From Theionarchaea archaeon (GTDB lineage Archaea > Methanobacteriota_B > Thermococci > Methanofastidiosales > SZ-28-30), in the NCBI GenBank assembly GCA_018992685.1, contig JACVGT010000008.1:67414-131413 (forward strand): DNA of 64,000 nt. Reading direction: 5' to 3'. Under the pieces are notes generated by a model. It searched no databases and had not been told where the DNA came from. It worked only from the letters and a program-made list of their open reading frames with translations. The stretch's first letter is position 1; each line of letters starts with the position of its first letter. Both the position numbers and the translations under genes were made by a program. Shown piece by piece: positions 1,405 to 7,301 of the stretch.

Positions 1405-2739
1405 TTATGGCGTGACTGGCTGTTCTGGCCACGGCTGTCCCCGTGTAGCGCACATCCAGGGATCGGGCATGCACACAGTCCCATAGTGCTGAAGCACTCT
1501 CGCTTTGCAGCCGCCTCTGCATTCCTGGACATGAGAACAGGTTCCGCAAGTCATGCTTTCTGTTGTACACTGCCTGAAAGGCTCGAAAATTGGACTGTTC
1601 ATCCAAAGGTACTCCATTGATTCTTCTCTGAGGCTGCCTGCTGTATGCTCAGGACTGCTCAACACAGGACACAGCACCACATCCCCACTCGCAGTCACCG
1701 TCACCATGGACGTCCCCACCCCGCAGAAAGAGTAGGGTGATTCCGTATTCTGCATTTCTGACGCGAATGTGAGCTCTAAACGTTGAGGAGTTTTCTCCTC
1801 AAAGGTCCGACACTGTTGTGATACCTCTTCACCCATTTCCAGAGGCGGAATGAGATGTTCGTGCTCTGTGCCTCTCCCTGCCCCCATGAATCGATCGAAA
1901 ATCATCTCGCGGACACCTAGATCCACCAGCATCTGGATGACGTTGGATAACTCTCCCACATTTTCTGTGTACACCACGGTATTGGAGCGGACCGGTATCC
2001 CATGGTTGACCAGCCGAGTGATACCTTCTACGGTCTTGTCAAAGGTATCCTTCCCCCTGATCTTCTGGTGGAGTTCTCTCGTACCGTCAAGACTTACCAT
2101 GACTTTCTCAGGGTTCAAAGCCTCCAACTGGCACACCGTGTCCTCGGTCAGGAGGATACCATTGGTGAACAGGTTCACCCCAACAGTATTATCCACGATA
2201 TATTCCAGAAGATCGAAGATGTCGCTCCGCAGGAGGGGTTCTCCCCCGGTGACAGCAATGCTCACCACACCCAGAGAAGCCAGTGAGTCTATTGCAGACA
2301 TCCAGTCTGCTGTATCCAATTCTTCCCCATGTGATGTACCTGCTTTCTTGTAGCAGTGAATACAGGTCAGGTTACACTTATTGGTTACCTCAAGATATGC
2401 AATATCAATGGGCCACTCCATCTCACTGCTCTTCATGATGACGGGCACATGCACTGGCTGACTGGAACCGTCCAGAAAATGGAGGTCACGCAGGAAATCA
2501 ATGGACTTTGAAGCCTTGTTCCTCACTCCTCTCTCAGGTTCGCTGTACAGCCCGCACAGTTCCTGTACAAGATCATCAGCTGTCCTTGTGCCGTCGCATA
2601 ATACCAGTAACTCCTTTAAATCCTCATTTGCTTTCCCCTGAATTCTCCTCTTCAAATCCTTTACTAGATATTTCCCCCCTTTTTGCTTCTTGATGACAAG
2701 AGAGCCCGAACTCACCAAATACTCTTTTTCATCAGTCAT
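1405..2739 (-). CDS. radical SAM/SPASM peptide-modifying enzyme with N-terminal PqqD-like domain
   Basis: A 444-residue protein. Residues about 5-90 resemble a PqqD-type winged-helix RiPP recognition element. The radical SAM core has the [4Fe-4S] motif C122-x3-C126-x2-C129 (TNKCNLTCIHCYKKAG) and the GGEP motif at 165-168. A C-terminal SPASM region carries Cys 339, 357, 391, 398, 401, 407, 411, 423 and 430, enough for auxiliary clusters. This is the PqqE/MftC-like layout, with the recognition domain fused to the enzyme. The start at 2739 is chosen because a GGGAGG lies 6 bases upstream; a longer frame would run far back into the preceding gene. It overlaps that gene by 8 bases and is the last gene of a three-gene operon with a short peptide gene. 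The reaction on the peptide (C-C, C-S or C-O bond formation, or epimerisation) cannot be read from sequence. Confidence 0.88.
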   Translation of the reverse strand: MTDEKEYLVSSGSLVIKKQKGGKYLVKDLKRRIQGKANEDLKELLVLCDGTRTADDLVQELCGLYSEPERGVRNKASKSIDFLRDLHFLDGSSQPVHVPVIMKSSEMEWPIDIAYLEVTNKCNLTCIHCYKKAGTSHGEELDTADWMSAIDSLASLGVVSIAVTGGEPLLRSDIFDLLEYIVDNTVGVNLFTNGILLTEDTVCQLEALNPEKVMVSLDGTRELHQKIRGKDTFDKTVEGITRLVNHGIPVRSNTVVYTENVGELSNVIQMLVDLGVREMIFDRFMGAGRGTEHEHLIPPLEMGEEVSQQCRTFEEKTPQRLELTFASEMQNTESPYSFCGVGTSMVTVTASGDVVLCPVLSSPEHTAGSLREESMEYLWMNSPIFEPFRQCTTESMTCGTCSHVQECRGGCKARVLQHYGTVCMPDPWMCATRGQPWPEQPVTP

Positions 2740-3784
2740 ATCCATCCTCCCAGCTTGCTGCAGCCAGCATTTGAGACCACGGGATAGCCTCATACGGATA
2801 TGATACCACCTGTTCATCAAAGACCTTCCTGCAGAGGGCAAGAAACCCACGGTGCTGAGGACTGCCGAAATATTCCTGGACCACATCCATCAACGACTTC
2901 TCCCTGATGTTCCCCATGTACAGACGGGGGTTGAGACAGCTGTCAACAGGCACCACATTCCCGTCAGGCAGGATGATGAGCTCCCGGGGATCATTTTCAG
3001 CATGTCTGTGGCATTCTGAGCCAAAGCATGCATATGCATTACAGGGGTGTTCAGTCAGGACCTTCTTGCTGTGGATTCCCATGTATACGCTGGTACTGGC
3101 CAGGTACTGCCCGTACAGCCTCGTGGTGAATTCAGCCAGTTCATCAATTTCCTTTTCAGACAGACAGGAAGATGCAATTTCCCGGGCTCTTCCTCCCACG
3201 AAGAGGGGCTCCAGTTTCAGACTCTCTGCTCCCAGGTCAGAGGCTGTCTCGGCAATCCATTCTATATATGGAAAGCTCTTCTTCGTTACCGTAAACTGGA
3301 GGGCAAAAGGGACATCTTTCTTCCTGAGAGCTTCAATACCCCTCATAGCACTTTGAAATGCACCCTTCATCCCCCTGAAGGTATCATGGTACTCCTGAGG
3401 ACCATCGACGCTGATGAGAACACACCTCACCAGGTCCCGCACTTTTTCTGCCAACTCCTCTGTGATGAGCGTCCCATTGGAAACGAAATCGGGTGAGAAC
3501 CCTTCCTCAACTGCTACTTCCAGGATACGGGTAAGGTCTGGATGCAGGGTAGGTTCTCCTCCTGAAAATGCTATTCGGGTGGTGTTCAGCTTCTTCATGT
3601 CCCTGACTATGGACAAGACCTCTTCTGCAGTGAACTGGTGCACGGGGACGTTCTGAGCATTGATGAAGCAGTGCTGACACGAGAGGTTACACCAGTCAGT
3701 GATATGAAAGAGAAACGTCACTTCCTCTTCAAAAAACCTCAGGGCATGCTGGTGCACACCCTGAGAATCAATCGGGGTTGTCAT
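2732..3784 (-). CDS. radical SAM enzyme with C-terminal SPASM/twitch-like cysteines
   Basis: A 350-residue radical SAM protein. The cluster motif is C32-x3-C36-x2-C39 (ITDWCNLSCQHCF), with GGEP at 75-78. A second cysteine set (C248, C253, C258, C283) sits beside a typical SPASM strand (LPDGNVVPVDSC) and GNIREKSL, suggesting at least one auxiliary cluster. The ATG at 3784 is preferred because GGTGGA lies 6 bases upstream; the TTG at 3790 falls between that site and the ATG. It begins 12 bases after a 30-codon gene and overlaps the next radical SAM gene by 8 bases. Two different radical SAM enzymes behind one tiny gene imply successive modifications of one peptide, though the first enzyme could act on another small molecule. 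Confidence 0.87.
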   Translation of the reverse strand: MTTPIDSQGVHQHALRFFEEEVTFLFHITDWCNLSCQHCFINAQNVPVHQFTAEEVLSIVRDMKKLNTTRIAFSGGEPTLHPDLTRILEVAVEEGFSPDFVSNGTLITEELAEKVRDLVRCVLISVDGPQEYHDTFRGMKGAFQSAMRGIEALRKKDVPFALQFTVTKKSFPYIEWIAETASDLGAESLKLEPLFVGGRAREIASSCLSEKEIDELAEFTTRLYGQYLASTSVYMGIHSKKVLTEHPCNAYACFGSECHRHAENDPRELIILPDGNVVPVDSCLNPRLYMGNIREKSLMDVVQEYFGSPQHRGFLALCRKVFDEQVVSYPYEAIPWSQMLAAASWEDGYD

Positions 3785-3796
3785 GTACAATCCACC

Positions 3797-3889
3797 TTAG
3801 TATGCAGGCAGCGAAGGCTGCGGCACGATCTTGGTCGCAACAGACTGTATCTTCAGTGCCATGAATTCAGGCATAAATACGTCTTTCAT
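3797..3889 (-). CDS. candidate RiPP precursor peptide (30 residues)
   Basis: A 30-codon frame beginning MKDVFMPEFMALK and ending PQPSLPAY, with stop TAA. It has its own Shine-Dalgarno site (GAGGTGA, 3894-3900) and a TATA box at 3921-3930, about 25 bases ahead of the inferred transcription start. Starts further upstream in this frame would lie beyond the promoter, so only this short version fits. It contains no cysteine; the C-terminal half has Lys, Gln, Ser, Thr, three prolines and a terminal Tyr, and Glu8 and Tyr30 are possible modification sites. It immediately precedes two radical SAM genes, one with a PqqD-like peptide-binding domain, the arrangement of PqqA and mycofactocin loci. I do not recognise the peptide itself as a known family; the role is inferred from context. 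Confidence 0.72.
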   Translation of the reverse strand: MKDVFMPEFMALKIQSVATKIVPQPSLPAY

Positions 3890-3893
3890 GGTC

Positions 3894-3930
3894 TCACCTC
3901 GGTGAGGTATATTCTGAGAACTTATAAATG
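3894..3930 (-). promoter_or_regulatory. promoter and inverted repeat of the peptide/radical SAM operon
   Basis: On the minus strand a TATA box (ATTTATAAG) lies at 3921-3930. The expected transcription start is near 3899. A 13-base inverted repeat, ACCTCGGTGAGGT (3896-3908), covers this start and overlaps the Shine-Dalgarno site of the peptide gene. It could be an operator or an RNA hairpin that masks the ribosome site. Confidence 0.55.
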
Positions 3931-3989: not shown

Positions 3990-4397
3990 ATACGGTCCAG
4001 AATAAAAACTCATGAGCAGGGAACAAAGATCGACATACATGCCCAACCCTCAGAAAAAAAAGAAAGAAATGGACTGCTACCCTGATCACTGGAGAAGAAC
4101 TCACGGCACAATAATCGAAGGAATAGGCCATTGCTTGATAATGATAGCCTGTTCGTTGTCTACCAAGAACTCGGGTTGGAACTTCTTCATTGAATCTCAC
4201 CTCCCTCCTCTTTCTCACCCTGTCTTTATAAATGTTTCTGCTTCTAATATACTTTTCATATTCTTGCGTAAAAAAGGTATCATTCTGGACAGGTGTAAAT
4301 AATAGACTGGAGAATGGGTCAAACACGGTACTTACTGTCAATAAAAAGAGAGGGCAGAATACAAAAGGTTTATAAACCTCGTGGCGAACATGTCTCC
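3990..4397. other. intergenic region with the sec61 beta promoter
   Basis: About 400 bases lie between the promoter of the radical SAM operon and the sec61 beta gene. Overlapping frames on both strands are present but have low-complexity, non-protein-like composition. The only clear signal is the TATA box of the next gene (TTTATAAA, 4368-4375). Confidence 0.5.
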
Positions 4398-6013: not shown

Positions 6014-7301
6014 GGAATCCCTCCAGACCAGTTACCAGGGCATCAATATCAAGGGCTGTATGCATCTCTGTAACACAGTAGATCGCAGTAGTCTTGTCGG
6101 TCATGAAGCCTCCCTGGATGTTATGTCGCAGGAGGTGCTCATGCACTTTTGCATACTGGGGGTGGCGGACGGTGAATTCCTTGAAGTGGGGAGCGTCAAA
6201 GATCGGTGACTCGAACCCGGGAATCTCATTAATCTTCTGCATGGTGTAGCCGGCATTTCTCATACAGAGTTCAGCCACCTCTCTGAGGCCTTGTTTCCCC
6301 ATGGTGGCCAGGTACATGGCGGCTGCCACTGCGCACAGAGCCTGGTTGGTACATATGTTGGAAGTAGCTTTTTCTCTCCTGATGTGCTGTTCCCGGGTCT
6401 GTAGCGTCATAACAAACCCTCTCTCACCTGATTCTGATTCTGTCATGCCAATGACCCGTCCCGGCATCTTCCGCAGCAATGCTTTCCTGCAGGCAAAAAT
6501 CCCCAGCAACGGTCCTCCAAAGTTCTGGGGGAGTCCCAGCCCCTGTCCATCTCCAATAATGACATCGGCTGAGTGTTCCGGGCTGATACAGCCGAGACTG
6601 ATGGGATCAACCCCTACGGTGAACAGAGCTGATGCATCGTGTGCTATTTCACCCACTGAACTCAAATTCTCATGCAGGAACCCATAAAAAGAGGGTTGCT
6701 CCACATAGACACCTCCCGCATGGGCTACCTTTTTCTTGAGGTCTTCCAGGTCAATATGTCCCCTCGTATCATGAGAAACCTTTACTACTTCCAAATCGGG
6801 GGCCAATGTGGTTAAAACCTTCTCTCTGAATGGTGATAGTAAATCAGATACCACAAATTTCTTTGAACCAGTACTCCTTTCACAGAGCAAGGCTGCTTCA
6901 GCCAGGGCTGTGGCCCAATCATAGTTAGATGAATTGCACACATCCATGCCAGTGAGGTCACAGATCAGGCTCTGGTATTCAAAGAGGGCCTGCAGCATCC
7001 CCTGGGATATTTCTGGCTGGTATGGTGTATACGCAGTGTAAAACTCACTTCTGGAAAGCAATTCCTTGATATGAGAAGGTATATAATGATTGTAGCAGCC
7101 TGACCCCAGGAATGAGAGCATGGTCTTATTCTTCTTAACTGTGGCTTCAATTCTCCGTGAGACCTCCAGATCAGACAGAGGAGGATGAAGTGGGATCTCT
7201 CTCTTGAGATGATGGGGAATATCCTTGAAGAGATCCTCCATGGTCATGTTCATCTGTTTGAGCATCAGTTCCTGTTCAGATACATTTGGGATATATCGCA
7301 T
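6006..7301 (-). CDS. gcvPA: glycine dehydrogenase (decarboxylating) subunit 1
   Basis: A 431-residue subunit 1 of the two-part P-protein. It has the expected opening (MRYIPNVSEQELMLKQM), SFLGSGCYNHYIP, and PYQPEISQGMLQALFEYQ. The start is set by a minus-strand TATA box (CTTTATAAT, about 7335-7343), which puts transcription near 7311, and by GGTGA just upstream of ATG 7301; the frame extends further upstream but would begin ahead of the promoter. Together with gcvPB it forms the heterotetrameric decarboxylase. The lineage could use it to degrade glycine or, in reverse, to make it. Confidence 0.94.
   Translation of the reverse strand: MRYIPNVSEQELMLKQMNMTMEDLFKDIPHHLKREIPLHPPLSDLEVSRRIEATVKKNKTMLSFLGSGCYNHYIPSHIKELLSRSEFYTAYTPYQPEISQGMLQALFEYQSLICDLTGMDVCNSSNYDWATALAEAALLCERSTGSKKFVVSDLLSPFREKVLTTLAPDLEVVKVSHDTRGHIDLEDLKKKVAHAGGVYVEQPSFYGFLHENLSSVGEIAHDASALFTVGVDPISLGCISPEHSADVIIGDGQGLGLPQNFGGPLLGIFACRKALLRKMPGRVIGMTESESGERGFVMTLQTREQHIRREKATSNICTNQALCAVAAAMYLATMGKQGLREVAELCMRNAGYTMQKINEIPGFESPIFDAPHFKEFTVRHPQYAKVHEHLLRHNIQGGFMTDKTTAIYCVTEMHTALDIDALVTGLEGFHV

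Follow-up and report, generated by a model that had tools for sequence, protein, structure and literature searches.

The window, that is, the entire stretch of 64,000 nucleotides analyzed here, contains on its minus strand a compact locus in which two short peptide genes, P2 (29 codons) and P1 (30 codons), are followed by the genes for enzyme A (350 aa) and enzyme B (444 aa), in this order. P1 is separated from enzyme A by a gap of 12 bases, and the genes for enzymes A and B overlap by 8 bases. A second genome of the same genus, that of Theionarchaea archaeon isolate SZ_28-30 (hereafter, the congener), contains P1, P2 and enzymes A and B in synteny and with the same neighbors, namely, a succinyl-CoA ligase-like (acyl-CoA synthetase) gene, a Sec61-beta gene and two glycine dehydrogenase subunits. 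The features of the locus and the evidence behind each are as follows.

4225..4232, minus strand: archaeal TATA box (TTTATAAA) of P2; kept in the congener alignment
4197..4204, minus strand: Shine-Dalgarno sequence GGAGGTGA of P2; congener alignment
4101..4190, minus strand: P2, second putative precursor peptide MKKFQPEFLVDNEQAIIIKQWPIPSIIVP; paralogy to P1, coding constraint
4053..4069, minus strand: T-rich run 3' of P2, possible archaeal terminator; kept in the congener
3922..3928, minus strand: archaeal TATA box TTTATAA of the P1-A-B operon; congener alignment
3894..3900, minus strand: Shine-Dalgarno sequence GAGGTGA of P1; congener alignment
3797..3889, minus strand: P1, putative precursor peptide MKDVFMPEFMALKIQSVATKIVPQPSLPAY; sequence, congener copy
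2732..3784, minus strand: enzyme A, radical SAM and half-length (truncated) SPASM domains, no RRE found; domain searches, model
1405..2739, minus strand: enzyme B, RRE, radical SAM and full SPASM domains; domain searches, model
2473..2706, minus strand: PqqD-like RRE of enzyme B, residues 12-89; HMM-HMM comparison, predicted fold, structural alignment
2353..2376, minus strand: CxxxCxxC radical SAM cluster motif of enzyme B, C122-C129; sequence
1450..1725, minus strand: SPASM domain of enzyme B with the seven canonical Cys, C339-C430; Pfam, Cys pattern

The earlier note on this DNA correctly described the 30-codon gene with its own ribosome site and the two radical SAM genes with their spacing and overlap, but, in postulating one promoter and one peptide, it missed P2. 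Because P1 and P2 each have their own Shine-Dalgarno sequence and TATA box, the latter located approximately 35-42 bases 5' of the respective ATG, the two peptides probably belong to separate transcription units; P2 ends before the conserved T-rich run. The TATA boxes, the Shine-Dalgarno sequences and the T-rich run occupy the same positions in the congener. Of the 734 frames in the window that start with ATG and encode 20-60 aa, only six have a strong Shine-Dalgarno sequence, and P1 and P2 are two of them. A scan for bacterial promoters and terminators, of a type unsuited to an archaeon, gave counts no different from those for shuffled sequences, a search of the leader region against Rfam detected no element, and NCBIfam and Pfam searches with P1 and P2 found no precursor family.

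P1 and P2 align over their full length with one gap. Their similarity score is 42, a value attained in 5 of 20,000 shuffles and, among the 734 frames of the window, elsewhere only by nested pieces of P1. Across P1, P2 and the two congener copies, ten positions do not vary (M, K, F, P, E, F, Q, P, P and S); each of the four peptides has MK..F.PEF, a Gln and P.PS[L/I], and none of the four contains Cys, which extends what the earlier note reported for P1. Tyr occurs only in P1 and Trp only in P2; P1 ends in Ala-Tyr, with Tyr final in both species, P2 ends in Val-Pro, and the congener copy of P1 no longer has Lys20. Coding constraint on P2 is clear: between the two species, its synonymous changes number 15 (17.7 sites) and its non-synonymous changes 6 (69.3 sites), and none of 5,000 random redistributions is as conservative. 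For P1 alone (6 synonymous and 10 non-synonymous changes), coding constraint is not significant, with 1,243 of 5,000 redistributions as conservative; the amino-acid changes fall in the middle of the peptide, and MKDVFMPEFMAL and PSLPAY are kept between species. The main evidence for the P1 gene is its resemblance to P2, together with its signals and synteny. For enzymes A and B, dN/dS between the two species is near 0.1.

A profile built from the four peptides, run against 115 genomes of the phylum, recovers precisely the four known copies; further matches are weak and scattered (E > 0.02) and are taken as chance, and a search for the F-x-P-E-F pattern, with tens of matches per genome, is uninformative. 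A scan of contigs with enzyme A as the query returned the congener and two unspecific radical SAM matches, and no relatives of the locus are found in the 113 other genomes of the phylum. Within these 115 genomes, the locus family is confined to one genus. The earlier note had proposed to search for the peptide beside enzyme homologs and named two findings that would speak against it, enzyme pairs devoid of the peptide gene and a frame not conserved at the protein level. The search recovered the congener copies but, with two species only, no core mapped by covariation; the peptide gene is still present beside the only homologous enzyme pair found, that of the congener, and its reading frame is conserved there, clearly so for P2 and without significance for P1 alone.

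Enzyme B contains the CxxxCxxC motif and matches Pfam Radical_SAM and the full SPASM domain. From residue 339 on, it has nine Cys, the number given in the earlier note, of which seven fit the canonical Cx12Gx4C...Cx2Cx5Cx3C...C SPASM pattern and two are extra. The fused PqqD-like domain, also proposed previously, scores below the Pfam cut-off (16.7 vs 23.4 bits; 17.6 in the congener), which paralogs in the genome exceed. The presence of an RRE in enzyme B is supported by an HMM-HMM comparison of its N-terminus with three stand-alone PqqD proteins of the genome (97% probability, E 9e-11), by the predicted structure (mean pLDDT 79), in which residues 14-85 adopt a b-b-b-a-a-a fold, and by structural alignment of residues 12-424 to SkfB (Z 32.6, rmsd 4.6, 369 residues) and of residues 12-431 to SuiB with bound precursor (Z 28.6, rmsd 5.2, 377 residues). 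The best structural matches of enzyme B are the peptide maturases SkfB, SuiB, CteB, PqqE and TigE, and EpeE, the epipeptide enzyme, is also among the matched folds. In the congener, the enzyme B gene is broken by 100 N and a duplicated flank (L030:5298-5436), apparently an assembly fault that may keep this gene out of automatic annotation.

Enzyme A likewise contains CxxxCxxC and matches Pfam Radical_SAM, with SkfB as the best structural match (E 4.9e-16). It covers only positions 7-44 of the 67 of the SPASM model, lacks the second Cys cluster that is present in paralogs, and has no recognizable RRE. Among the NCBIfam matches listed, neither enzyme reaches a cut-off: enzyme A comes closest to the heme b synthase AhbD (126 bits vs a cut-off of 500), and enzyme B to the mycofactocin radical SAM enzyme (171.6 bits vs a curated cut-off of 265).

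The locus probably encodes a radical-SAM RiPP pathway with both P1 and P2 as substrates. It combines a short conserved precursor gene beside a maturase (strong evidence for P2, supporting for P1) with an auxiliary-cluster domain and an RRE domain in the maturase. The principal proposal of the earlier note, that the short peptide is a radical-SAM RiPP substrate, is well supported: neither of the two findings that would speak against it was obtained. Against this reading count the distance of approximately 200 bases between the P2 unit and the P1-A-B operon, the low confidence at which the C-terminal part of enzyme A is modeled, the substitution test for P1 alone, and the absence of a protease, transporter or immunity gene among the flanking genes examined, where the earlier note, too, saw neither transporter nor protease. 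So does the occurrence of the locus in two species only, which rules out mapping of the core by covariation.

In the mechanism that we propose, the shared N-terminus MK..F.PEF would be bound by the RRE of enzyme B, with the F-x-P-E-F segment as the putative recognition sequence. Reported RRE recognition motifs include YxxP in lasso peptides and hydrophobic variants such as LxxP (PMC12710340); F-x-P-E-F is similar to the lasso-peptide YxxP, with a different spacing. Enzymes A and B would cooperate, plausibly as a complex, the formation of which we consider about evenly balanced, and SAM-derived radicals together with auxiliary Fe-S clusters would modify the C-terminal half, Q...P-x-P-S-[L/I]. 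Beyond the putative leader, the four peptides have in common Gln15, Pro23, Pro25, Ser26 and Leu/Ile27. Given the absence of Cys, and given that none of Tyr, Trp and Lys is shared by all four peptides in the C-terminal half, the shared reaction would most likely occur at backbone alpha-carbons or at carbons of Gln, Pro, Ser or Leu/Ile. Epimerization and a non-thioether cross-link, such as an ether, are the candidates, each of them tentative at best, as this chemistry is read from the lack of Cys and the shared residues. The Tyr- or Lys-based chemistry previously considered could not serve both precursors, since Tyr is absent from P2 and the congener does not retain Lys20 of P1. Enzymes encoded elsewhere would act in trans to remove the leader and to carry out any export; leader removal could be the task of TldD/PmbA-type peptidases.

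Thuricin CD, with two precursors (TrnA and TrnB) and two radical SAM enzymes in a complex, of which TrnC has a canonical RRE and a seven-Cys SPASM domain and TrnD a truncated SPASM (PMC12093266), provides the nearest documented layout, and the working plan of the two systems may be alike. The locus shares with it the two precursors, one enzyme with an RRE and a full SPASM, and one with a truncated SPASM, but differs in the lack of Cys in the precursors, the lack of a recognizable RRE in enzyme A, the lack of an adjoining transporter, and the archaeal host. A sactipeptide or ranthipeptide, the thuricin CD type included, is rejected because neither P1 and P2 nor the congener copies contain Cys donors. 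Enzyme B aligns over nearly its whole length with the RRE-radical SAM maturases SkfB and SuiB, and its identity to maturases of the SkfB/CteB/SuiB type is 15-24%. SkfB and CteB form Cys thioethers and SuiB forms a Lys-Trp bond; P1 and P2 do not have either residue pair in common. Triceptide (cyclophane) RiPPs carry an aromatic-X-X motif in the core; P2 contains Trp-Pro-Ile, and the C-terminal half of P1 has only the C-terminal Tyr, the start of the core not being fixed.

The radical-SAM RiPP kind is already known; what is new is the Cys-free precursor family and the combination of two paralogous precursors with two unequal enzymes. We consider possible, although doubtful, a more specific scenario of an archaeal two-component RiPP, in which a cooperating radical SAM pair acts on two paralogous Cys-free peptides by a new reaction, for example, an ether or carbon-carbon link via the conserved Gln and Ser or Leu/Ile, in a lineage with a radiation of such pathways.

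Among the alternatives, an intracellular cofactor pathway like those of PQQ or mycofactocin, in which enzyme B oxidizes or decarboxylates the C-terminal Tyr of P1 to yield a small redox cofactor, survives best but is improbable. Mycofactocin precursors end in a C-terminal Val-Tyr. Like the MftA/MftB/MftC system, the locus has a precursor ending in Tyr, at the end of P1 in both species, and the mycofactocin family is the closest named family of enzyme B by score; no exporter adjoins the locus. Yet that score is far below the curated cut-off, the RRE is fused, P2 lacks the C-terminal Tyr so that the reaction would not suit both precursors, no further mft genes are adjacent, and mycofactocin itself is rejected on the score and on the lack of a C-terminal Val-Tyr in either peptide. 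The resemblance to PQQ (PqqA/PqqD/PqqE) consists in a short precursor, an RRE and a radical SAM-SPASM enzyme; unlike PQQ, the locus has no Glu-x-x-x-Tyr pair in P1 or P2 and no further pqq genes adjoining, and PQQ is rejected as well, enzyme B being well below the curated PqqE cut-off (135.3 vs 381.35 bits). Moreover, unlike PQQ or mycofactocin, the P1/P2 family is confined to one genus. The suggestion of the earlier note that the product may be a cofactor retained inside the cell is accordingly weak: its basis was the missing neighboring transporter and protease, and TldD/PmbA-type peptidases and ABC transporters encoded at sister loci could act in trans.

Still less probable is the possibility that the enzymes act on another substrate, such as a heme precursor or a protein, and that the short frames are regulatory leader peptides. 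AhbD is the best NCBIfam match of enzyme A, but the score falls far short of the cut-off; enzyme B contains a peptide-recognition domain, P2 forms its own transcription unit and is under coding constraint, and no Rfam element is present. That P1 or P2, or both, are chance open frames, as their very short length and the non-significant substitution test for P1 alone might suggest, is scarcely credible given the Shine-Dalgarno sequences, TATA boxes, paralogy and conservation in the congener.

The radical-SAM RiPP reading is further supported by sister cassettes in the same genus. The genome containing the window has 23 SPASM matches and the congener has 36, compared with 0-6 in the 39 other genomes searched from the same order and class. 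At approximately 10 other loci of the window's genome, a Shine-Dalgarno-preceded short frame lies beside a radical SAM gene, and several of these loci are kept in the congener; none of the ten short peptides tested matched any NCBIfam family. One peptide family, with W(K/M)ExKxxCL at its end, is represented at three loci of the window's genome (L012:7030-7128, L013:10450-10361, L017:7842-7744) and at two places in the congener (L083:3500-3604, 6611-6709), upstream of RRE-radical SAM-SPASM genes, and nowhere else in the 115 genomes of the phylum. A gene with a TldD/PmbA C-terminal domain adjoins a sister locus (L013:5021-3786).

According to a 2025 survey, experimental validation had until then been achieved for only two archaeal RiPPs, both of them lanthipeptides of Haloarchaea, and radical-SAM RiPP loci are predicted to be widespread in archaea (PMC12144867). 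The locus described here is compact enough for expression, and the lack of Cys in both of its precursors limits the chemistry that is possible. The broader discovery is a SPASM-rich genus of Theionarchaea, sediment archaea of a little-studied lineage, which is a promising source of new radical enzyme chemistry because of its 23 and 36 SPASM domains, far more than in its relatives, and its many unrelated short precursors.

Several further observations concern individual cassettes. Genes for TldD/PmbA, an M50-like peptidase or an apparent ABC transporter lie near the W(K/M)ExKxxCL peptides, and a similar TldD/PmbA pair, judged by eye, is present at L014:741-3436. On contig C2 of the window's genome, a precursor-like gene of 73-75 aa with repeated CALEVQPTF units (L028:8110-7883, minus strand) lies beside radical SAM genes at 7862-6483 and 6455-5100; it looks like a multi-core Cys-containing RiPP, and its congener copy consists of 58 residues with four units followed by a stop. 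Cys-rich short frames, mostly mutually dissimilar, adjoin one to three radical SAM genes at L022:4963-5157, L029:7089-6931, L021:4212-4352 and L085:1442-1585. The congener also has five copies of a 24-25 aa peptide starting with MEPRVEDYLDATCVASTGG (one with STAG), with strong Shine-Dalgarno sequences and variable tails, in stretches around SPASM matches (L079:2724-2358, L086:1113-294); these are absent from the list of Shine-Dalgarno-preceded short frames of the window's genome. Two tandem paralogous Cys-containing peptides, MYT..IEEIS.EIDQCMCCA (L020:7232-7155, 7637-7539; L082:1863-1765, 1468-1391), adjoin a radical SAM gene and a stand-alone PqqD gene and are conserved in the congener. A Cys-free peptide of 28 aa, MYAKPMLEEITVRITADKWLISLPALPY (L023:4292-4378), lies 5' of a radical SAM gene and resembles the L020 peptides at its N-terminus.
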